In this document: positions 19,378 through 35,353 of the stretch, one piece after another
Position numbering within the stretch: position 1 is the stretch's first letter
Layout of the letters: every line of letters begins with the position of its first letter
NCBI RefSeq assembly: GCF_009833965.1
Contig: NZ_CP047165.1
Location: forward strand, 744,001 to 808,000
Direction of reading: 5' to 3'
Source of the DNA: Pelistega ratti
GTDB lineage: Bacteria; Pseudomonadota; Gammaproteobacteria; Burkholderiales; Burkholderiaceae_B
DNA: 64,000 nt
Translations under genes and position numbers: made by a program
Notes under the pieces: generated by a model
Database searches by the model: none
The model's input: only the letters and a program-made list of their open reading frames with translations
What the model was told of the DNA's origin: nothing

Positions 19378-20070
19378 CTATGCTCTGTGTTGTACTGCAC
19401 GCAGGGCTTGTTGTCTGCTTAACCGAGCGTTGTATTTCTCTATCGGAAACATCTCATTAAAATGGTGTAGGGTTTTGCGCCACTCAATATCGTCCTTGGA
19501 TAGTTTAGTAAAGAGTTCTCGTAAGCTACGTTCTCTAAGGGTGATAGATATATCAGGCTCTGTATAAAGACTGAACACCTCAGCCGCATATTGTGAGAGC
19601 ATGGCTTGGAGAGCAGGATAGAGTTTTTTAAATATCTCAGCTTGTTTGTGTGCCAGAAAGAGCAAATCACTCAATGTATGCAACACCTCATCTTCTACTT
19701 CATGGGTTTTGGGCTCATACGCAATGGTTGCTTGGGTTGGGGTGGTGTAGCTACCTGTTTTGCGGATAGTGGGGAGGACTTCTTCCATTACCCATTCTTC
19801 AAATCGTTCTGCTTCGACTTTACGGCTTTTGATAATTAAGCGGTAAAGATTGGGTTCGTTGATGAATGTTAATTCTTGATTACCTTTTGGGGTAAGGGTA
19901 TATCGTTTCGATATACCCTTTTCTCTACAATGTTTTTGAATAGTTAGAGGTGCATTAATATAACCCAGAATATCGCAAACATCGGTACCGCAAAACCAAA
20001 GTTCATTGTTCTCATCAGTATGAGTACGAACGGGGAGATTATTAAAGTTAAAAGTCGTGATATTGCTCAT
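19378..20070 (-). CDS. BRO-N antirepressor, copy A (left cargo zone)
   Basis: The 230-residue protein has an N-terminal BRO-N domain (about residues 1-105, with ELWFCGTDVCDILGY and LYRLIIKSRKVEAERFEEWV) and a C-terminal helical domain (about 110-225) that is closely related to that of the three antirepressors at 32.7-35.4 kb. BRO/Ant proteins are phage antirepressors that counter the CI-type repressor or act on host regulators. It is preceded by a structured leader RNA and promoter of the same type as the right-hand copies, in inverted orientation. The C-terminal domain is more diverged than among the other three. Confidence 0.85.
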   Translation of the reverse strand: MSNITTFNFNNLPVRTHTDENNELWFCGTDVCDILGYINAPLTIQKHCREKGISKRYTLTPKGNQELTFINEPNLYRLIIKSRKVEAERFEEWVMEEVLPTIRKTGSYTTPTQATIAYEPKTHEVEDEVLHTLSDLLFLAHKQAEIFKKLYPALQAMLSQYAAEVFSLYTEPDISITLRERSLRELFTKLSKDDIEWRKTLHHFNEMFPIEKYNARLSRQQALRAVQHRA

Positions 20071-20116
20071 GATGAGCTCCTTGGATTTTAGTTAATGATT
20101 GTCACCTTAATAGGGT

Positions 20117-20272
20117 GACGGGCTTCAACTACCGATCCAAGTCGGCGACTGGTATTCCCAAAAGGTGTTGTATTTCCAGTTCTCGACCCGTCATAAGAAG
20201 ACGTTACTTTGTGTATAGGCGTAAAAAAACCGCTTTATCTGTCGGGTGCGGAAACCGCTTGGATTTAATAGT
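20117..20272 (-). ncRNA. C4-type antisense leader RNA candidate, copy A
   Basis: The minus-strand RNA has a closing helix (GACGGG with CCCGTC, ends at 20192 and 20117), an inner hairpin (ACTGG with CCAGT) around the conserved loop AAATACAACACCTTTTGGGA, and a second hairpin (CCGA with TCGG). A fourth hairpin (GTCACC with GGTGAC) follows directly. The same three-way junction precedes antirepressor copies at 32-34.6 kb with compensatory base changes. It lies between a strong promoter and the BRO gene, where P1/P7 carry C4 antisense RNA. Identity with the C4 family is inferred. Confidence 0.65.
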
Positions 20273-20278
20273 GATTTT

Positions 20279-20308
20279 ATTATGCGATATGTTTAGGGAT
20301 TTTGTCAA
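20279..20308 (-). promoter_or_regulatory. Sigma-70 promoter of antirepressor cassette A
   Basis: On the minus strand TTGACA (20308-20303) and CATAAT (20284-20279) are separated by 18 bases. Transcription would begin a few bases downstream at the start of the leader RNA. Confidence 0.75.
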
Positions 20309-25674: not shown

Positions 25675-25765
25675 ATCCTTTATGGTTTTTAATTTTATAT
25701 ATTGTAACCTTAAAGTATTTACAAGTAAACCCTTTTTTATAATTTAATTTAGAACCATTATGGTT
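25675..25765. promoter_or_regulatory. cI-cro operator region with three 13-bp sites
   Basis: Three sites share the pattern AACCTTWAAGGTT: ATCCTTTATGGTT at 25675-25687, AACCTTAAAGTAT at 25706-25718 and AACCATTATGGTT at 25753-25765. A perfect copy, AACCTTAAAGGTT, is found at 29266-29278. The middle site lies over the leftward cro promoter, and the third covers the first candidate start of cI. This spacing resembles a three-operator lambdoid switch. Binding is inferred. Confidence 0.65.
25701..25729 (-). promoter_or_regulatory. Leftward early promoter (PR-like) for cro
   Basis: On the minus strand TTTACT (25729-25724), 17 bases, TACAAT (25706-25701). The operator-like site at 25706-25718 lies in the spacer and touches the -10 box. 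Confidence 0.65.
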
Positions 25766-25777
25766 AAAATATTATCC

Positions 25778-26473
25778 ATGAAGCTTAAAAATGAAATCCG
25801 ACTAGATAATTTACGTGTATTAATCTCTGAAGCTGGCAATCAGGTCAAATTAGCCGAATTAGTAGGCGTAGCGCCAAGCTACATTAATACACTTGCTAAA
25901 CAACGTATTGATGCCAGTACTGGTAAGTCAAAAAGTATTGGTGAATCTATGGCTCGCAAATTAGAAGTAGCGATGGATAAGCCTTATGGTTGGTTAGACC
26001 AAGACCACTCAGAGCATAAAGATGACGTTACAGATGGGTATATCTCGCTAACCTATTACGATATACAATCATCCGCAGGTAATGGTAACAATGTAGAGTA
26101 CTTCCCTGCGATCAAACAAATTACTGTCTTAGAAGATTGGGCAAATAGTCAGCTCGGGTACAATGCCTCCAAAAGAATAAAACTTATCCAGAATAAAGGT
26201 GTTTCCATGTACCCCACCATCAGAGACGGCGATATTCTGATGGTCGATATTACATGCAACCGCTTTGATGGAGATGGCATCTATATTATCGCCATCAATG
26301 ATGAGTTATTCACTAAACGGCTTATTCGTGATATTGATGATGGCAGTTTATTAATCGTTAGCGATAACCAAACCGCTGGCTATAAAACCAAACGTATCAC
26401 CAAAAGAGAAGAACACCTACTGACTATCTGTGCCAAAGTCAAAAAACATGGGGCGTTTTTGGATACGGTTTGA
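25778..26473 (+). CDS. CI-type repressor with S24 (LexA-like) peptidase domain
   Basis: From ATG 25778 the protein has 231 residues. An XRE-type helix-turn-helix lies at about residues 1-75 (VKLAELVGVAPSYINTLAKQRID), and a LexA-like self-cleaving domain follows: the serine is in GVSMYPTIRDGD near 144 and the lysine in FTKRLIRD near 182. Such repressors hold lysogeny and are cut after RecA activation. An earlier ATG (25760) would add six residues but lies inside operator-like site 25753-25765, so I prefer 25778. The OLD-like gene and the methyltransferase follow on the same strand. Confidence 0.93.
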   Translation: MKLKNEIRLDNLRVLISEAGNQVKLAELVGVAPSYINTLAKQRIDASTGKSKSIGESMARKLEVAMDKPYGWLDQDHSEHKDDVTDGYISLTYYDIQSSAGNGNNVEYFPAIKQITVLEDWANSQLGYNASKRIKLIQNKGVSMYPTIRDGDILMVDITCNRFDGDGIYIIAINDELFTKRLIRDIDDGSLLIVSDNQTAGYKTKRITKREEHLLTICAKVKKHGAFLDTV

Positions 26474-26563: not shown

Positions 26564-28195
26564 ATGACCACAACTCATAGCATTAAACTACAAAAACTAT
26601 CCTTTCCAGAAAAATCATTTAGAAAATTTAAGAATATCGAAATAAACTTTGCAAAGAGATTAACTTTAATTGCTGGTCATAATGGCGTAGGTAAAACAAC
26701 TATTTTAGGTTTACTCGCTGGCACATTTGGACAAACTAATACATCCTTTAAAACTTATACAGAGGAAGCATTTTCAAAAAGCATTGAAAATATTCTTCAT
26801 ATTGATTTAACAGAAGTAGAAAAATACGCAGGAGAAGCAAAAGACAATCCAAAAATAACTATTGACTTTAATAAAACCATTATAGAAAAAAGATGCTCAC
26901 TAACAACTAGAACAAGAGGAGATACCCGCCGAGCAAGGCTTGTTGCTCGAAATACATCAAAAGACTTTGATAATATAATCGGTGATTCTTCTAAGATACC
27001 ACTACCCACTATTTTTCTAGGTGTAAAACGATTAATTTCCATTGGCGAATCTGATGAAAAGGATGTTATCAGCACCCCTTTTAAAGAAATGCATCCAGAC
27101 GATAAAGCTCTCATTAAGGAGTTTATAACAAATATTATGACAGGGGGCCAACTTACTGATGATATATCCTATCAAAAAATAGGTAAAAATGAAAAAAGAA
27201 GTGCACAACCAATCTATAAAGGATTTAATGAATTAAGTATTTCTTTAGGACAAGATAGCCTAGGTAATATAGCGACTGCATTAGCTTCTTTTCAAAAATT
27301 AAAACGAGAAATGGGTAATTCATACCCGGGAGGATTGCTACTTATTGATGAAATTGATGTTGGTTTTCATCCTCTTACTATTCGTAAATTAGCCAAAACT
27401 CTAACCTCCATTGCTAGAAGGCTAAGTCTCCAAATTGTAGCAACAACTCATTCACCTATTCTTATTGAAGAATATTTTAAAAATAATCAAAAAAATCAAC
27501 CCGAAGATAAAGTTATTTATTTTTTCGATAGTAACTATCCTCATCTTAAAGATAACATTTCTTTTCAAGATATTCAAAACGATTTAGAACTCACTCCTCC
27601 TTGTAAAATACATAAAGAAACAATGTCTATTTACTTTGAAGATGAAGAAACTAAAGAGTTTTTTAATGAGATACTCCCAGCCAATGCTAGAAGAAAACTT
27701 ATGAAAGAATTAAATATAAATATTACATTACATCTTATTCCCTTAAAAATAGGATGTAATAGTCTATTAAATCTACCCAATATTGATCCTCTTTTTCGCC
27801 AAAGAGTTCTTGTCGTAGATGGAGATGCCTCCCTTACTAAAAATAGATACAATAATACGACAAGGCTTCCATTTCCCAAAAATTCATCTAAAAATCAAAG
27901 ATCCCCTGAACGATTAATCAAAGAGTTTTTAGAAGATTTATCAAGAAATGAGAACCTTCTCCAGCAATTACCTAAGGATATAACATCAGATTATATTCAT
28001 GAACACTTATTATCATCAATCACTACTGATGCAAGAGAATCCAATAAAACTTGGTGGAGGAATAATTTTAAATATTTAAAAGAATGGGGAATTATTAAAT
28101 TATGGGCAAAACATTATAAAAAAGAAGTAGAAGAATTTAAGAATAACTTTTTAATAGCTCTAAAGAACGCCTTAAAAAACGCTGGCCAAAAATAA
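26564..28195 (+). CDS. OLD-like ATPase with Toprim nuclease domain, candidate phage defence gene
   Basis: The 543-residue protein has an ABC-type AAA ATPase half: Walker A GHNGVGKTTI near 38, signature SISLGQDSLGN near 226, Walker B GLLLIDEIDVGFHP near 261 and ATTHSPI near 297. The C-terminal half shows a Toprim pattern with IYFEDEETKEFF near 356 and VLVVDGDASL near 412. This order is that of OLD-family exclusion nucleases (P2 Old) and related defence ATPases. It follows cI on the same strand, where it can be expressed in the lysogen. It is more AT-rich than the structural genes. No TM segment or signal peptide is present. Confidence 0.8.
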   Translation: MTTTHSIKLQKLSFPEKSFRKFKNIEINFAKRLTLIAGHNGVGKTTILGLLAGTFGQTNTSFKTYTEEAFSKSIENILHIDLTEVEKYAGEAKDNPKITIDFNKTIIEKRCSLTTRTRGDTRRARLVARNTSKDFDNIIGDSSKIPLPTIFLGVKRLISIGESDEKDVISTPFKEMHPDDKALIKEFITNIMTGGQLTDDISYQKIGKNEKRSAQPIYKGFNELSISLGQDSLGNIATALASFQKLKREMGNSYPGGLLLIDEIDVGFHPLTIRKLAKTLTSIARRLSLQIVATTHSPILIEEYFKNNQKNQPEDKVIYFFDSNYPHLKDNISFQDIQNDLELTPPCKIHKETMSIYFEDEETKEFFNEILPANARRKLMKELNINITLHLIPLKIGCNSLLNLPNIDPLFRQRVLVVDGDASLTKNRYNNTTRLPFPKNSSKNQRSPERLIKEFLEDLSRNENLLQQLPKDITSDYIHEHLLSSITTDARESNKTWWRNNFKYLKEWGIIKLWAKHYKKEVEEFKNNFLIALKNALKNAGQK

Positions 28196-28217: not shown

Positions 28218-29075
28218 ATGAACACTTTTTACACTCCCCTACGCTATCCAGGGGGCAAAGGTAAGTTTGCCCCTTTTATTGAGTCCCTTATCAAGCTCAA
28301 TGAATATCCCTATACCCACTATTTAGAGGTATATGCGGGAGGGGCAGCTATTGCCTTAGACCTACTCTATAAAGGCTTTATCAAAGAAATCCATATTAAT
28401 GACATAGATTTTGCTATCTATGCTTTCTGGTATGCCGCTGTTTACCAAACAGATGAAATGATTGACAAAATCCGCTCAGTCGATATATCACTAGATAATT
28501 GGTACTATTACAAAGGCATTCTGATTGATGAGTCAAATAACAATACCCTAGAAAAAGGTTTTGCTACCTTTTTTATGAATCGCTGCAATCGTTCAGGTAT
28601 TTTAAAAGGTGGAATGATTGGTGGTAGAGCACAAACTGGACAATGGAAATTAGATGCTCGGTTTAATAAAGAAGAATTGATTAAACGCTTTGAACTTATT
28701 AAAAAATACCGCTCTCAAATTTATGTACATAATAAAGATGCTAAGGAATTACTAGAATCTTGCCATGATTTTTTACCCGTTCATCAATCGCTTATCTATC
28801 TAGATCCACCCTATTTTGTTAAAGGACAAGGTTTGTATCGCAACTTCTATCAAGCAAAGGATCATGAAGAGATAAAGAAAACCCTAGACCATCTTCAATA
28901 TGACTGGATTGTTTCTTATGACAATGTCCCTGAAATTCGCAAGATATACAAAGGCTATTCAGCCCGTGAACATATCCTAAACTATAGTGCGTACGAAAAG
29001 AAACTTGGAAATGAAATCATTTTCTTTAGTCCAAAATTACGTATTCCTCGCAAAAATCTCCGTAAAGCAGCATAA
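28218..29075 (+). CDS. D12-class N6-adenine DNA methyltransferase (Dam-like)
   Basis: The 285-residue protein has the Dam/D12 motifs in order: LRYPGGKGKFAPFIESL at the N-terminus (SAM-binding), LEVYAGGAAIALDLL near 37, FMNRCNRSGILKGG near 118, and the catalytic DPPY motif in SLIYLDPPYF near 193. It methylates adenine in a short DNA target that cannot be read from the sequence. It lies 22 bases after the OLD-like ATPase and before a terminator, so the two form a unit. An orphan phage methyltransferase is possible; so is a protective partner of the ATPase-nuclease. Confidence 0.9.
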   Translation: MNTFYTPLRYPGGKGKFAPFIESLIKLNEYPYTHYLEVYAGGAAIALDLLYKGFIKEIHINDIDFAIYAFWYAAVYQTDEMIDKIRSVDISLDNWYYYKGILIDESNNNTLEKGFATFFMNRCNRSGILKGGMIGGRAQTGQWKLDARFNKEELIKRFELIKKYRSQIYVHNKDAKELLESCHDFLPVHQSLIYLDPPYFVKGQGLYRNFYQAKDHEEIKKTLDHLQYDWIVSYDNVPEIRKIYKGYSAREHILNYSAYEKKLGNEIIFFSPKLRIPRKNLRKAA

Positions 29076-31527: not shown

Positions 31528-32184
31528 ATGCAAATCTCAGCTTATCTAGATGAAAGCGGTGATCTTGGGTGGAAATTTGATGCACCTTACCGCCAAGGTG
31601 GCTCAAGTCGTTATCTAACGATTGCCGCAATCTTAATTCATCATGATAAACGTCATTTACTTAAACGGTTAATGAGAGATTTATATAATAAAACAAAAAC
31701 ACCTACAAATAAAGAAGTTAAATGGGCTGCTCTCACGGTAGAACAACGTATCTGGATAGCAAATAAACTAGCAGATTTCAAAATAAAGCATGGTAATGAT
31801 GTTCAATATTTCTGTATGACTGTTAATAAGGAAAAAGTCGCAGTACATATTCGTCAAGATCAAAACAAACTCTATAATTACATGGTCAAGTGCTTACTTG
31901 CCAAAGAGTTTGCAAAATATAATAAAGTTATATTCAATATTGATCAACGAACAATGAAAGTACAAAGTGGCAATTCCTTACATGATTACCTACAAACAAC
32001 AATCTGGCTTGATATTGGTGCAGAAACATTACTAACAACCAATCAATGTGACAGCAAATGCCATTTAGGTGTTCAGCTTGCTGATATTATTTCAGGCATA
32101 GTACAAAGCCATTTTGAAGATGCAAAGAGCGAGCCTTTCAATATATTAGAAGTACACAGTGAAGTAAAAACACTCTTCTTTTAA
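31528..32184 (+). CDS. DUF3800 protein (RNase H-like fold family)
   Basis: The 218-residue protein begins with the diagnostic YLDESGDLGW and has later acidic motifs in FNIDQRTMK near 138 and LADIISGIVQSHFE near 189, in agreement with the DUF3800 nuclease-like core. DUF3800 proteins are common in mobile elements; function is not firmly known and a nuclease role is suspected. A ribosome site (AAAAGGAC) precedes the ATG. The structured RNA directly upstream is probably part of the same system. Confidence 0.9.
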   Translation: MQISAYLDESGDLGWKFDAPYRQGGSSRYLTIAAILIHHDKRHLLKRLMRDLYNKTKTPTNKEVKWAALTVEQRIWIANKLADFKIKHGNDVQYFCMTVNKEKVAVHIRQDQNKLYNYMVKCLLAKEFAKYNKVIFNIDQRTMKVQSGNSLHDYLQTTIWLDIGAETLLTTNQCDSKCHLGVQLADIISGIVQSHFEDAKSEPFNILEVHSEVKTLFF

Positions 32185-32251
32185 AACACCCAATTGTAAA
32201 CTATAGTAAGTTTATAAAGCAAACCTTATAGTTCTCATTAAAAAACCATAT

Positions 32252-32280
32252 TTGACACCAACCGCCCTTTCAGGCATAAT
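32252..32280 (+). promoter_or_regulatory. Promoter of leader B in the antirepressor array
   Basis: TTGACA (32252-32257), a 17-base spacer and CATAAT (32275-32280), close to the sigma-70 consensus. Confidence 0.8.
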
Positions 32281-32289
32281 GAAACCACT

Positions 32290-32445
32290 ACTAAATTCAC
32301 AGCGGTTTCCGCACCTGTCAGCCAAGCGGTTTTTTTACGCCTATTTACAGGCACGTCTTCTTATGACGGGTTGAGAACTGGAAATATAACACCTTTTGGG
32401 AATACCAGTCGCCGTCTGTGAACGGTAGTTGAAGCCCGTCACCCT
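32290..32445 (+). ncRNA. C4-type antisense leader RNA candidate, copy B (no antirepressor directly behind)
   Basis: The closing helix is GACGGG (32365-32370) with CCCGTC (32435-32440). The inner hairpin ACTGG/CCAGT encloses AAATATAACACCTTTTGGGA, and the second hairpin is CCGT/ACGG. The 5' half shares a long conserved stretch with copies A, C and D (GTCAGCCAAGCGGTTTTTTT). Unlike the others it is followed not by a BRO gene but by a second promoter and a diverged leader (B'). Confidence 0.65.
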
Positions 32446-32460
32446 ACTAAGCAGTATCTA

Positions 32461-32489
32461 TTGACAACAAAAAATCTTTTTGCTACTAT
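32461..32489 (+). promoter_or_regulatory. Promoter of leader B'
   Basis: TTGACA (32461-32466), 17-base spacer, TACTAT (32484-32489). Confidence 0.65.
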
Positions 32490-32495
32490 TTCCAC

Positions 32496-32655
32496 AAGGT
32501 CTCAAAAGCCTATTTGTCAAACGGTCATATCACCCCGTTAGTGTGTTTTTTTATGTCTTAAATATATACAGGATATATGCCGACGGTGCGAGGAATACAA
32601 TACCGTAAGGGAATAACTCCGCCAGATTTTGACACTGGTTTTGAGCCGTTGGCGC
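32496..32655 (+). ncRNA. Diverged C4-type leader RNA candidate, copy B'
   Basis: The sequence is different from the other copies, but the architecture is kept: a 9-bp closing helix GCCGACGGT/GCCGTTGGC (G.U pairs allowed), an inner hairpin GCGAG/CTCCGC around GGAATACAATACCGTAAGGG, and a hairpin CCAG/CTGG. The loop phrase AATACAAYACC...GGGAATA is conserved with the other copies. A short stem CCCT/AGGG follows, as the fourth hairpin does elsewhere. The antirepressor copy 2 lies directly behind it. Confidence 0.55.
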
Positions 32656-32699
32656 CCTCTCAAGGGTTTTATAAACTCCTCTCAAAAAGGAAGTGTCAA

Positions 32700-33416
32700 A
32701 TGTCTAATCAATTATCTACATTTAATTTTGAATCAAATTCTATCCGTACTTTAGTTATTAATAATGAACCGTGGTTTGTTGCTAAAGATATTTGTGATAT
32801 TCTAGGAATTAAAAATCCTACTCAAGCCTTAGAAAATTTAGATGATGATGAAAGGGCTATGTTTAATGTAGGGCTTAATCAGCGAGTAAATTTTGATAAT
32901 CGTATTACTGAAATTAATATTGTTTCAGAAAGCGGAATGTACACCCTAATTTTACGTTGTCGTGAGGCGGTAAAAAAAGGTTCTATTCCTTACCGTTTCA
33001 GAAAATGGGTAACAAATGAGGTCCTCCCCACTATCCGCAAAACAGGCAACTATACCACCCCTACCCAAGCAACTATTGCGTATGAGCCTAAAACCCATGA
33101 GGTAGAAGACGAGGTACTGCATACATTGAGTAATTTACTCTTTCTTGCCCACCGACAAGCCGACGTGTTAGCAAAACTTTACCCTGCTCTCAAAACCATG
33201 CTTTCACAATACGCTGCTGAAGTATATAGCCTATACACCGAACCGGGACTTTCTATCTCACTTAGCGAACATCGCTTACGCAAACTTTTTACCACACTTG
33301 CCAAAGATGATGCTGAGTGGCGAAAAACCCTACACCACTTTAATGAGATGTTTCCGATAGAGAAATACAATGCACGGTTAAGCAGACAACAAGCCCTACA
33401 TGCCATAGGGCGATAA
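32700..33416 (+). CDS. BRO-N antirepressor, copy 2
   Basis: From ATG 32700 (AAAAAGGAAG upstream) the protein has 238 residues. The N-terminal BRO-N domain (about 1-115) contains EPWFVAKDICDILGIKNPTQ and ends with FRKWVTNEVLPTIRKTG; the C-terminal domain (about 118-238) is nearly identical to copies 3 and 4. An in-frame ATG at 32577 would read through the leader RNA and is rejected. Proteins of this kind act as phage antirepressors. The variable N-terminus and constant C-terminus suggest modular swapping of the recognition part. Confidence 0.88.
   Translation: MSNQLSTFNFESNSIRTLVINNEPWFVAKDICDILGIKNPTQALENLDDDERAMFNVGLNQRVNFDNRITEINIVSESGMYTLILRCREAVKKGSIPYRFRKWVTNEVLPTIRKTGNYTTPTQATIAYEPKTHEVEDEVLHTLSNLLFLAHRQADVLAKLYPALKTMLSQYAAEVYSLYTEPGLSISLSEHRLRKLFTTLAKDDAEWRKTLHHFNEMFPIEKYNARLSRQQALHAIGR
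33040..33416 (+). repeat. Direct repeat, copy 1 of the antirepressor C-terminal module
   Basis: About 375 bases from the segment encoding YTTPTQATIAYEPKTHEVED to the stop codon recur almost unchanged at 34018-34388 and 34982-35353. Confidence 0.9.
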
Positions 33417-33465
33417 CTTACCGTCTATTTATGCTATTTATTTAGCATAAAGTTTACAAGCACAC

Positions 33466-33494
33466 TTTACAAATAAATGCTGATGGGTTATGAT
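33466..33494 (+). promoter_or_regulatory. Promoter of antirepressor cassette C
   Basis: TTTACA (33466-33471), 17-base spacer, TATGAT (33489-33494). A terminator-like hairpin (TATGCTA/TAGCATA, about 33,430-33,449) lies just before it. Confidence 0.75.
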
Positions 33495-33501
33495 GAAATC
33501 C

Positions 33502-33665
33502 TCTCAATAAACTAACAAGCAGATTCCGCACCTGTCAGCCAAGCGGTTTTTTTACGCCTATTTACAGGCACGTCTTCTATGGCGGGTCGATAGCGAGCAA
33601 ATACAACACCTTCGGGAAATAGCTTGCAGCGGTTTCTTGTTAGACCGAGAGTGAGTCCCGCCACC
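33502..33665 (+). ncRNA. C4-type antisense leader RNA candidate, copy C
   Basis: The closing helix is GGCGGG (33581-33586) with CCCGCC (33657-33662); compared with copies A, B and D an A-U pair has become G-C on both strands. The inner hairpin is GCGAGC/GCTTGC around AAATACAACACCTTCGGGAA, and the next one CGGT/ACCG. The fourth hairpin is CCAC/GTGG. These compensatory changes are direct support for a real RNA fold. Confidence 0.7.
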
Positions 33666-33707
33666 CTCATTAAAAGTGGTATCTCTCAAAACTAACAGGA
33701 GCTCATC

Positions 33708-34388
33708 ATGAGCAATATCACAACATTTAATTTTCAATCTAATACAATACAAGTTATTAATAAAAACAATGAAGCATGGTTTATTGCTTCAGAAATTGCA
33801 TTAATCTTTGGTTATCGTGACGCATCAAATCTTGTTAGAATTTTAGATGAAGATGAAAAGGGTACTCACAATATGAGTACCCTTGGTGGAACACAATTAG
33901 CTCTAATTATTTCAGAAAGTGGACTATATCATGCAGCTTTTAAAAGTCGCAAACAAGAAGCTCAAGATTTTAGGAAATGGGTAACAAATGAAGTCCTACC
34001 AACCATTAGAAAAACAGGTAGCTACACCACCCCTACCCAAGCAACTATTGCGTATGAGCCTAAAACCCATGAGGTAGAAGACGAGGTACTGCATACATTG
34101 AGTAATTTACTCTTTCTAGCCCACCGACAAGCCGACGTGTTAGCAAAACTTTACCCTGCTCTCAAAACCATGCTTTCACAATACGCTGCTGAAGTATATA
34201 GCCTATACACCGAACCGAGACTTTCTATCTCACTTAGCGAACATCGATTACGCAAACTTTTTACCACACTTGCCAAAGATGATGCTGAGTGGCGAAAAAC
34301 CCTACACCACTTTAATGAGATGTTTCCGATAGAGAAATACAATGCACGGTTAAATAGACAACAAGCCCTACACGCTATAGGGCGATAA
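33708..34388 (+). CDS. BRO-N antirepressor, copy 3
   Basis: The 226-residue protein has a BRO-N domain distinct from its neighbours (EAWFIASEIALIFGYRDASNLVRILDEDEKG) and the shared C-terminal domain from about residue 105. A ribosome site (CAGGAGCTCATC) precedes the ATG; the bases around it (GGAGCTCATNATGAGCAATA) are conserved in copies A, C and D, so the leader RNA may control translation of all of them in the same way. Role: phage antirepressor. Confidence 0.9.
   Translation: MSNITTFNFQSNTIQVINKNNEAWFIASEIALIFGYRDASNLVRILDEDEKGTHNMSTLGGTQLALIISESGLYHAAFKSRKQEAQDFRKWVTNEVLPTIRKTGSYTTPTQATIAYEPKTHEVEDEVLHTLSNLLFLAHRQADVLAKLYPALKTMLSQYAAEVYSLYTEPRLSISLSEHRLRKLFTTLAKDDAEWRKTLHHFNEMFPIEKYNARLNRQQALHAIGR
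34018..34388 (+). repeat. Direct repeat, copy 2 of the antirepressor C-terminal module
   Basis: The stretch is nearly identical to 33040-33416 and 34982-35353, differing at a few bases only. Confidence 0.9.
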
Positions 34389-34437
34389 TGTACCGTCTAT
34401 TTATGCTATTTATTTAGCATAAAGTTTACAAGCACAC

Positions 34438-34466
34438 TTTACAAATAAATGCTGATGGGTTATGAT
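34438..34466 (+). promoter_or_regulatory. Promoter of antirepressor cassette D
   Basis: TTTACA (34438-34443), 17-base spacer, TATGAT (34461-34466). The surrounding 90 bases repeat those before cassette C. Confidence 0.75.
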
Positions 34467-34473
34467 GAAACCA

Positions 34474-34647
34474 CTACTAAATTACGAGCGGATTCCGCAC
34501 CTGTCAGCCAAGCGGTTTTTTTACGCCTATTTACAGGCACGTCTTCTTATGACGGGTTGAGAACTGGAAATACAACACCTTTGGGAATACCAGTCGCCGT
34601 CTCGTAACGGTAGTTGAGACCCGTCACCCTCATTCATGGTGATGATA
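34474..34647 (+). ncRNA. C4-type antisense leader RNA candidate, copy D
   Basis: The closing helix is GACGGG (34551-34556) with CCCGTC (34620-34625); the inner hairpin ACTGG/CCAGT surrounds AAATACAACACCTTTGGGAA; the second hairpin is CCGT/ACGG; the fourth is TCACC/GGTGA. Confidence 0.65.
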
Positions 34648-34672
34648 CTAACTAAATTACGAGGAGCTCATT

Positions 34673-35353
34673 ATGAGCAATATCACAATATTTAACTTTA
34701 ATAGCCACCCTGTCCGTATCGAAATTAAAGATAACGAACCTTTATTCTGCTTGACCGATGTCGCAGAAATCTTAAATATCCAAAATGCCAATCCAGCTCG
34801 TTTTAATTTAAATGAAAAGGGTGTACATAAAATGTACACCCTTACACAAGGCGGTAAACAAGAAATCACTTTTATTGATGAAGCAAACCTCTACAGGGTA
34901 ATTTTTAGATCAAATAAACCGGAAGCCATTGAGTTTCAAAACTGGGTCTTTGAAGAAGTTCTCCCCACTATCCGCAAAACAGGCAACTATACCACACCTA
35001 CCCAAGCAACTATTGCGTATGAGCCTAAAACCCATGAGGTAGAAGACGAGGTACTGCATACATTGAGTAATTTACTCTTTCTTGCCCACCGACAAGCCGA
35101 CGTGTTAGCAAAACTTTACCCTGCTCTTAAAACCATGCTTTCACAATACGCTGCTGAAGTATATAGCCTATACACCGAACCGGGACTTTCTATCTCACTT
35201 AGCGAACATCGATTACGCAAACTTTTTACCACACTTGCCAAAGATGATGCTGAGTGGCGAAAAACCCTACACCACTTTAATGAGATGTTTCCGATAGAGA
35301 AATACAATGCACGGTTAAGCAGACAACAAGCCCTACATGCCATAGGGCGATAA
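34673..35353 (+). CDS. BRO-N antirepressor, copy 4
   Basis: The 226-residue protein has a third type of BRO-N domain (EPLFCLTDVAEILNIQNANPARFNLNEKG, then IFRSNKPEAIEFQNWVFEEVLPTIRKTG) and the shared C-terminal domain. It follows leader RNA D and a ribosome site GAGGAGCTCATT. It is the last gene of the antirepressor array, which ends in a hairpin region before the dNMP kinase gene. Confidence 0.9.
   Translation: MSNITIFNFNSHPVRIEIKDNEPLFCLTDVAEILNIQNANPARFNLNEKGVHKMYTLTQGGKQEITFIDEANLYRVIFRSNKPEAIEFQNWVFEEVLPTIRKTGNYTTPTQATIAYEPKTHEVEDEVLHTLSNLLFLAHRQADVLAKLYPALKTMLSQYAAEVYSLYTEPGLSISLSEHRLRKLFTTLAKDDAEWRKTLHHFNEMFPIEKYNARLSRQQALHAIGR
34982..35353 (+). repeat. Direct repeat, copy 3 of the antirepressor C-terminal module
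   Basis: Almost identical to 33040-33416 and 34018-34388. Repeats of this size can recombine and add, remove or swap cassettes. Confidence 0.9.

Follow-up and report, generated by a model that had tools for sequence, protein, structure and literature searches.

Barcoded sRNA-Xcc1 leader RNAs as probable C4-like antisense gates of antirepressor genes in a Pelistega ratti prophage

We analyzed a 64,000-nucleotide (nt) stretch of the Pelistega ratti genome (assembly GCF_009833965.1, contig NZ_CP047165.1, positions 744,001 to 808,000; hereafter the window, whose numbering is used throughout) that carries a prophage with an array of antirepressor genes behind structured leader RNAs. The prophage holds five such leaders, A to D in tandem on the + strand and E about 12 kb away on the - strand. 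Leaders B, C, D and E each precede an antirepressor, and leader A precedes none of its own. The initial annotation had given the coordinates of the array (32252..35353) correctly, had counted three or four tandem units in it, and had placed one further unit on the other side, which corresponds to leader E with the gene for Bro4. The RNAs and the antirepressor genes are:

32365-32448, + strand: leader A, sRNA-Xcc1 RNA, an orphan without its own antirepressor (RF02221, 45.4 bits, E 3.2e-6)
32578-32662, + strand: leader B, sRNA-Xcc1 RNA (RF02221, 52.9 bits, E 5.5e-8)
33581-33670, + strand: leader C, sRNA-Xcc1 RNA (RF02221, 31.2 bits, E 0.0075)
34551-34633, + strand: leader D, sRNA-Xcc1 RNA (RF02221, 45.4 bits, E 3.3e-6)
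20109-20192, - strand: leader E, sRNA-Xcc1 RNA (RF02221, 46.4 bits, E 4.0e-7)
32700-33416, + strand: antirepressor Bro1, Bro-N + P22_AR_C (Pfam E 1.9e-22 and 7.2e-6)
33708-34388, + strand: antirepressor Bro2, Bro-N + P22_AR_C (Pfam E 2.9e-20 and 2.4e-6)
34673-35353, + strand: antirepressor Bro3, Bro-N + P22_AR_C (Pfam E 1.6e-20 and 5e-6)
19378-20070, - strand: antirepressor Bro4, after leader E (81% identity to Bro1-3 over the tail)

By covariance model the leaders are the same RNA as sRNA-Xcc1 (RF02221), which A to D match across the full model. Across the whole P. ratti genome there are exactly five RF02221 matches at E <= 1, all of them in this prophage. The gathering cut-off of the family is 53 bits and all five leaders score below it (the best at 52.9), which is why a default Rfam scan of the window comes back empty; relatives with the same layout score 54-86 bits. 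The initial annotation had instead matched the leaders, by place and layout, to the C4 antisense RNA of P1/P7-type immunity operons and proposed the C4 covariance model (RF01695) as the check. That model finds nothing at E <= 10 in 32150-34720, although P1's own C4 scores 68.8 bits with the same tool, and we therefore reject membership of the C4 family. The lack of a covariance-model hit, which that annotation had named as grounds for abandoning its idea, thus applies to C4 and not to RNA families in general, as RF02221 matches all four array leaders. The isrK model (RF01394) likewise has no match at E <= 10 in the window leaders or their upstream elements.

The paired changes that the initial annotation had read as selection on the fold are present. 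The outer stem changes an A-U pair to G-C on both sides (GACGGG/CCCGTC to GGCGGG/CCCGCC), and hairpin 2, one of the inner hairpins said to be rebuilt, is altered on both sides across the leaders (CCGU/ACGG, CCGA/UCGG, CCAG/CUGG and CGGU/ACCG, read by eye). In a MAFFT alignment of 60 members, RNAalifold found hairpin 2 again, with 4/7 pairs changed on both sides; it did not recover the outer stem in these 60 members because MAFFT misaligned it.

Two segments of the leaders are complementary to flanking sites: the loop of hairpin 2 (b'), a 7-8 nt "barcode", and J3 (a'), the strand that follows hairpin 2. In the list of flanking sites below, b1 and b2 denote complements of the loop and a1 and a2 complements of J3, upstream and downstream of the RNA.

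32252-32280, + strand: promoter-like site of leader A, TTGACA-17-CATAAT, 11/12
32287-32302, + strand: upstream target of leader A, a1 ACTAC (32287-32291) and b1 barcode TTCACAG (32296-32302), complements of J3 and the hairpin-2 loop
32309-32336, + strand: terminator-like hairpin of leader A, CCGC/GCGG plus T7 run, read from the sequence, at the same place as in the family
32461-32489, + strand: promoter-like site of leader B, TTGACA-17-TACTAT, preceded by TG, 10/12
32501-32521, + strand: upstream target of leader B, a1 CTCAAAA (32501-32507) and b1 TGTCAAA (32515-32521)
32681-32702, + strand: downstream target of leader B, a2 CTCAAAA followed by b2 AGTGTCAAA, which extends into the start codon; 9 nt perfect, -13.5 kcal/mol
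33466-33494, + strand: promoter-like site of leader C, TTTACA-17-TATGAT, 10/12
33501-33519, + strand: upstream target of leader C, a1 CTCTC and b1 CTAACAAG
33526-33553, + strand: terminator-like hairpin of leader C plus T7 run, read from the sequence
33683-33699, + strand: downstream target of leader C, a2 CTCTC and b2 CTAACAGG at the Shine-Dalgarno sequence; 6 nt perfect, 8 with G-U, -11.5 kcal/mol
34438-34466, + strand: promoter-like site of leader D, TTTACA-17-TATGAT, 10/12
34473-34488, + strand: upstream target of leader D, a1 ACTAC and b1 TTACGAG
34495-34522, + strand: terminator-like hairpin of leader D plus T7 run, read from the sequence
34650-34663, + strand: downstream target of leader D, a2 AACTA and b2 TTACGAG beside GGAG; 7 nt perfect, -9.1 kcal/mol
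20279-20308, - strand: promoter-like site of leader E, TTGACA-18-CATAAT, read by eye
20258-20264, - strand: upstream b1 site of leader E, ATCCAAG
20080-20086, - strand: downstream b2 site of leader E, ATCCAAG beside GGAG; 7 nt perfect, -9.6 kcal/mol

In all five leaders the hairpin-2 loop is the reverse complement (7-8 nt) of a site just after the leader's own promoter. The loops of B, C, D and E are also reverse complements, over 9, 6, 7 and 7 nt, of the Shine-Dalgarno sequence or start codon of their own antirepressor, which is the pairing that the initial annotation had proposed to look for. Across all combinations of loop and site, duplex energy is lowest for the own pair, both within its row and within its column, at -8.3, -8.2, -9.2, -7.8 and -9.1 kcal/mol for the upstream sites of A to E and at the values listed above for the ribosome sites of B to E. 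J3 supplies a second antisense segment that pairs beside the loop's site: its complements are ACTAC (upstream) near A, CTCAAAA on either side of B (7 nt), CTCTC near C, ACTAC and AACTA near D, and ACTA and AACTA near E, these last two being short matches that carry little weight alone. Because the barcodes differ, the units of this prophage would be gated independently. The claim that each cassette is gated by its own antisense RNA is thus borne out at the level of pairing, which is specific in all four antirepressor cassettes and recurs across the family.

This recurrence was measured on loci carrying the conserved RNA motif AATACAAYACCN{3,6}GGGAAT, which occurs in at least 120 viral and at least 117 genome stretches. 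Among the matches listed, 231 with flanking sequence reduced to 164 with a perfect outer-stem run of at least 6 and to 134 loci at 85% identity; leader B, whose stem depends on a G-U pair, is not among these. When all RNA positions are compared without bias with their surroundings, two peaks emerge, the hairpin-2 loop and J3, on both sides of the RNA. A perfect 7-mer complement of the loop lies downstream in 64/134 loci (shuffled mean 4.7, maximum 13) and upstream in 91/134 (shuffled mean 8.9, maximum 19; 2000 shuffles and fixed windows in both cases, the shuffled partners preserving composition and not kinship). Both sites are present in 51 loci, only the upstream site in 40, only the downstream site in 13 and neither in 30. 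A control segment of the RNA gives 2 downstream matches (3.7 expected) and 13 upstream (7.4 expected). Within 24 nt 5' of the loop's site, a J3 complement is found in 82/91 upstream cases (shuffled 40.0, maximum 51) and in 59/65 downstream cases (shuffled 22.8, maximum 33). The same holds when loci are drawn with the Rfam model instead of the motif, with 22/27 upstream (6.75 expected, maximum 13) and 13/28 downstream (4.0 expected, maximum 10); this set comprises the 28 of 35 matches outside the own genome that have a locus, two of which (L263 and L278) share the same RNA.

The loop is hypervariable, with 107 different 7-mers in the 134 loci, and its partners change with it. In 87 pairs of loci with a near-identical 5' half and different loops, both upstream sites track their own loop in 61 pairs and both downstream sites do so in 19. 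The downstream site ends between 2 nt inside and 12 nt before the start codon in 62 of 63 loci, these being loci with a downstream site of at least 7 nt, chosen with a start codon within -3 to 20 nt. RF02221 matches at E <= 1e-4 occur in 23 of 369 genomes drawn from the class (own genome included), in 1 of 41 near relatives (the own genome), and a stretch resembling leader E occurs in 49 of 5,426 E. coli genomes. A relaxed motif counts four copies in the window; 8 of the other 273 loci, most of them short, have two and none has more. The tandem set, which the initial annotation had called unusual, does hold two or more cassettes beyond most loci compared; tandem sRNA-Xcc1 copies are nevertheless on record, five of them in Xylella (PMC12189769).

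The genes behind the leaders belong to several antirepressor-type families or are symE. Bro-N scores of Bro1-3 are 73.1-80.1 bits against a Pfam cut-off of 25.6, and the PHROG label for the array antirepressors is "anti-repressor Ant". Judging by this family annotation, the Bro proteins would lift phage repression. The tails of Bro1-3 are 98-100% identical to one another and 81% identical to that of Bro4, and the heads of all four share 37-56%, so variable heads on near-constant tails make a multi-specific antirepressor bank plausible, as the initial annotation had suggested. An S24-type CI-like repressor at 25760-26473 is a likely target. Across the family, 131 downstream open reading frames (ORFs) were collected and 129 of their proteins scanned (one duplicate and L212 were left out, the start of Bro1 was corrected and Bro4 was included). 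Pfam domains in these 129 are Bro-N in 20, Phage_pRha in 14, KilA-N in 14, P22_AR_N in 11, AntA in 9, ORF6N in 8, SymE_toxin in 4 and P22_AR_C in 24, counts in which one protein may appear twice. Because the N-terminal domains belong to different Pfam families, the sRNA-Xcc1 RNA appears to have been combined with several kinds of switch protein.

Several further features accompany these genes. A DUF3800 protein (31528-32184; PHROG 9243, E 1.3e-74) lies directly before the array, and in the early region an AAA ATPase (AAA_15/AAA_21, 26564-28195) adjoins a D12 adenine methyltransferase (28218-29075). Palindromes of 12 bp lie inside the genes for Bro2 (33858-33884), Bro3 (34817-34843) and Bro4 (19894-19920), at about nt 144-176 of the ORF, and their arms differ among the three (GGGTACTCA, GGGTGTACAT, GGGTATATCG). 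A perfect inverted repeat with arms of at least 9 occurs within the first 600 nt in 26/95 of the relatives' downstream ORFs (codon-shuffled mean 2.15, maximum 5, 40 shuffles). With arms of at least 8 it occurs in 33/95, and 24 of the 42 centers fall at nt 150-199, in ORF6N, AntA, Rha, KilA-N, P22_AR_N and Bro-N genes; such repeats are not rare in the background, since 271 of all 1,408 ORFs in these loci, the targets among them, also contain one. Bro1, P1 ant1 and S1249 Ant are without such a repeat.

Upstream of the RNA, promoter-like sites start all four + strand leaders with 10-11 of 12 positions matching, as the initial annotation had claimed, and yet in the region overall such sites are not above chance (19 found against 15.4 in shuffles, standard deviation 3.2). 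Of 83 loci that combine an upstream barcode with a T run, 80 have a hairpin of at least 4 pairs ending at that run (raw counts), and these terminator-like hairpins show 25 different arm pairs. CGG follows the upstream barcode in 63 loci, and CCG stands in the hairpin loop in 60 of them. When the barcode and CGG are masked in folding, the mean pairing of the hairpin's 3' arm goes from 0.73 to 0.84 (up in 40/63, down in 4/63), a modeled effect that fits attenuation, in which the RNA would bind new transcripts and favor termination.

Although the leaders are not C4 by family, their organization closely follows that of C4 in P1 and P7, and it is this part of the initial proposal that stands. Both run from a promoter or promoter-like site through a1-b1, a terminator-like hairpin, the RNA and an a2-b2 element at the ribosome site to the gene; the P1 record itself gives the order a1, b1, C4, a2, b2, icd. 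The P1 C4 RNA likewise forms a three-way junction whose hairpin-2 loop holds b' and whose next strand holds a', and the genes controlled are antirepressors (Bro-N + P22_AR_C in Bro1-3). Complementarity to the target at the ribosome site is found for leaders B, C and D (a and b), for leader E and in the wider family, and the second target upstream is present for all five window leaders and 91/134 relatives. The P1 leader even contains, as barcode-CGG-ACAA-CCGCA-GATTT-CCG-ATAT-TGCGG-T run, the same upstream element as the family, and the outer-stem ends of leader C resemble those of the C4 consensus (AUGGCGGG...CCCGCCACC). In contrast to the plain stem of C4, hairpin 1 of the leaders has a conserved AAUACAA-ACC...GGGAAU internal loop; no icd-like gene separates RNA and antirepressor in this array as it does in P1; and several differently barcoded units share one prophage, unlike in P1 and P7. 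We suggest that sRNA-Xcc1 may be a distant relative of C4. C4 and its a1-b1 element are known as motifs (PMC2864571), and 21 C4-like small RNAs of Acinetobacter have a variable a' loop and GG-motif processing (PMC5320573).

Other phage systems share parts of this plan. The IsrK/STnc1160/orf45-anrP cassette of Gifsy-1 (RF01394) also combines one promoter, a terminator, a processed RNA and an antirepressor, but IsrK is described as an activator, unlike the gate proposed here (PMC4825925). The CI RNA of satellite phage P4 (seqA - CI - seqC) is a processed RNA that pairs upstream and downstream of itself (PMC4825925); it is a different RNA that acts on replication genes. The sar RNA of P22 blocks an antirepressor by antisense pairing and is, unlike the leaders, a separate antisense RNA (PMC12197685). 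The likeness to P4 and P22 is one of description. In an E. coli E2863 prophage (L245, 1561-3358), isrK directly precedes C4, both before a Rha gene, and next comes an sRNA-Xcc1-type leader (by motif, under the gathering score) with its loop and sites ahead of an AntA gene, so that both kinds of gate stand side by side.

On the best reading of these data, sRNA-Xcc1 RNAs are cis-encoded, C4-like antisense gates with a hypervariable barcode, and we consider it very probable that each cassette of this prophage is a self-gated antirepressor unit working as C4 does in P1. One promoter would give a transcript that starts with a1-b1 and the terminator-like hairpin, continues with the three-way-junction RNA and reaches, past a2-b2 at the ribosome site, the antirepressor gene. 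The RNA, probably cut out of this leader, would offer its hairpin-2 loop and the single strand behind that hairpin as two antisense segments. Cleavage of the C4 kind, by RNase P at the 5' end of the outer stem, has an indirect counterpart in the mapped ends of the 88 nt Xanthomonas sRNA-Xcc1 (PMC2996969). In a lysogen it would pair with a2-b2 and block ribosome entry, and would also pair with a1-b1 on new transcripts, most likely favoring the terminator and thereby damping its own operon. If the gate failed, antirepressor would be made and prophage repression could be lifted. The RNA family, the pairing and its specificity, the recurrence and the gene context underlying this scheme come directly from the computations above. 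There is good support for a block of translation and less certainty about what the upstream site does, and we infer the processing, the direction of the upstream effect, the targets of the antirepressors and any part in induction or immunity.

Several results weigh against this scheme. Pairing at the ribosome site is not universal, given the 30 of 134 loci with neither site and the 40 with the upstream site only, and 12 Xanthomonadaceae loci that were inspected have an upstream complement of at least 7 nt and no start-codon site. Cross matches occur in the loop-switched pairs (12/61 upstream, 1/19 downstream). Covariation of the CGG:CCG contact is not beyond chance (12 of 18 non-CGG loci against 9.3 expected). 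Finally, IsrK, which in Gifsy-1 occupies the place of the upstream element, is reported as a trans activator, the opposite sign (PMC4825925).

This last point leads to the most serious alternative, which leaves the downstream pairing unchanged and reverses the upstream effect. Terminated transcripts would yield a short decoy RNA, a1-b1, that sequesters the antisense RNA and turns the antirepressor on, much as the short form of IsrK acts in trans to activate translation from the read-through transcript (PMC4825925). The a1-b1 region of P1 weakly resembles isrK (35.1 bits, E 8.5e-6, under the cut-off of 50), isrK directly precedes C4 in the E. coli prophage described above, and the terminator-like hairpin that precedes the RNA in nearly all loci with a T run would produce such a short RNA. 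We regard the decoy as possible but somewhat improbable, since blocking the barcode favors the terminator in 40/63 folds, as attenuation needs, and the P4 CI RNA pairs upstream and causes termination (PMC4825925). A leader acting purely in cis, its loop pairing with the ribosome site of the same molecule and with no separate small RNA, we consider unlikely. RNA and site do lie on one transcript about 40-60 nt apart, and folds cannot separate cis from trans; yet the Xanthomonas sRNA-Xcc1 was mapped in 2010, cloned as an 88 nt RNA (PMC2996969), the C4 RNA of P1 is processed by RNase P and then acts in trans (PMC5320573), and a minus-strand 89 nt sRNA-Xcc1 of E. coli EDL933 is covered by 40,293 transcript reads, with a ribosomal coverage value of only 0.02 (PMC5331693). 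In the EDL933 record NZ_CP008957, an 89 nt minus-strand match stands before a gene annotated "phage antirepressor Ant" and has an 8 nt barcode matched at the upstream and the downstream site; this is likely the same locus as the transcribed RNA, which the paper placed on record NC_002655.

Very unlikely, in our judgment, is that the sRNA-Xcc1 RNAs are trans-acting regulators of virulence or of the host, linked to antirepressors merely by hitch-hiking in prophages. In support of such regulators, the title of a Xanthomonas paper reportedly places a trans-acting sRNA-Xcc1 under HrpG/HrpX control. The published view also lists these RNAs among the vesicle sRNAs of Xylella, for which host and plant targets have been predicted (PMC12189769). 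Against it, the segment of the RNA that varies most matches its own neighbors, on one or both sides, in 104/134 loci, which is not what trans action on chromosomal genes leads one to expect. Additional trans targets of sRNA-Xcc1 RNAs are possible.

On a wider hypothesis, temperate phages and cassettes would share in the sRNA-Xcc1 family a widespread barcode system, in which a constant scaffold with a 7-8 nt hypervariable loop would label antirepressors or toxins as "own". The RNA of a resident prophage would silence incoming phages of the same barcode and let other barcodes pass, loops would diversify under selection, and prophages may stack barcodes, with orphans such as A kept as trans-acting immunity records. 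We put this forward tentatively and hold it to be rather doubtful. The loop of leader A reaches at best -5.2 kcal/mol with another cassette's ribosome site. The sequence TTCACAGGAG, which a trans target would carry, occurs nowhere in the own genome; AACTAANTTCACAGGAG occurs in 21 stretches of viral contigs, of which one has a weak sRNA-Xcc1-like motif and none is cassette-like when its context is read. In its RNA context the loop is found among viral contigs in a single one, IMGVR_UViG_2910230000_000001, whose compared bases (12,302 + 1,680) are 100% identical to this prophage, and no near-identical phage records were found. These searches thus give the immunity-record idea no direct support. 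A second case of the same arrangement exists: orphan leaders directly precede a second, differently barcoded leader both here (32365-32448) and in Aggregatibacter phage S1249 (L247, 2363-2449), in which two tandem leaders stand ahead of one antirepressor.

In print, sRNA-Xcc1 is a virulence-linked small RNA of Xanthomonas and Xylella without a target-gene rule in the parts consulted; the rule proposed here would supply one. It is still discussed as a virulence RNA with predicted host or plant targets (PMC2996969, PMC12189769, PMC12444791), and a 2025 study places it ahead of symE, in the Xanthomonas cassette of widest distribution, and suggests a "divergent regulatory mechanism" (PMC12444791). 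We did not find the loop-to-neighbor rule in the parts of the sRNA-Xcc1 literature examined; the 2011 sRNA-Xcc1 and P1 C4 primary papers lay outside this search, and earlier recognition is possible. What appears new is C4-type antisense gating by an RNA family not previously assigned to it, and several separately barcoded antirepressor units per prophage.

If the rule is true, the target of an sRNA-Xcc1 RNA can be read from its own neighborhood, the loop naming the antirepressor or symE gene that it gates. This suggests a job for a widespread small RNA of previously unclear function, and would make a long-open question testable with simple reporters. RF02221 and C4 would come under one mechanism, with a bearing on the Xanthomonas symE cassette (PMC12444791), and the barcode would make specificity in prophage induction and superinfection immunity accessible from sequence.

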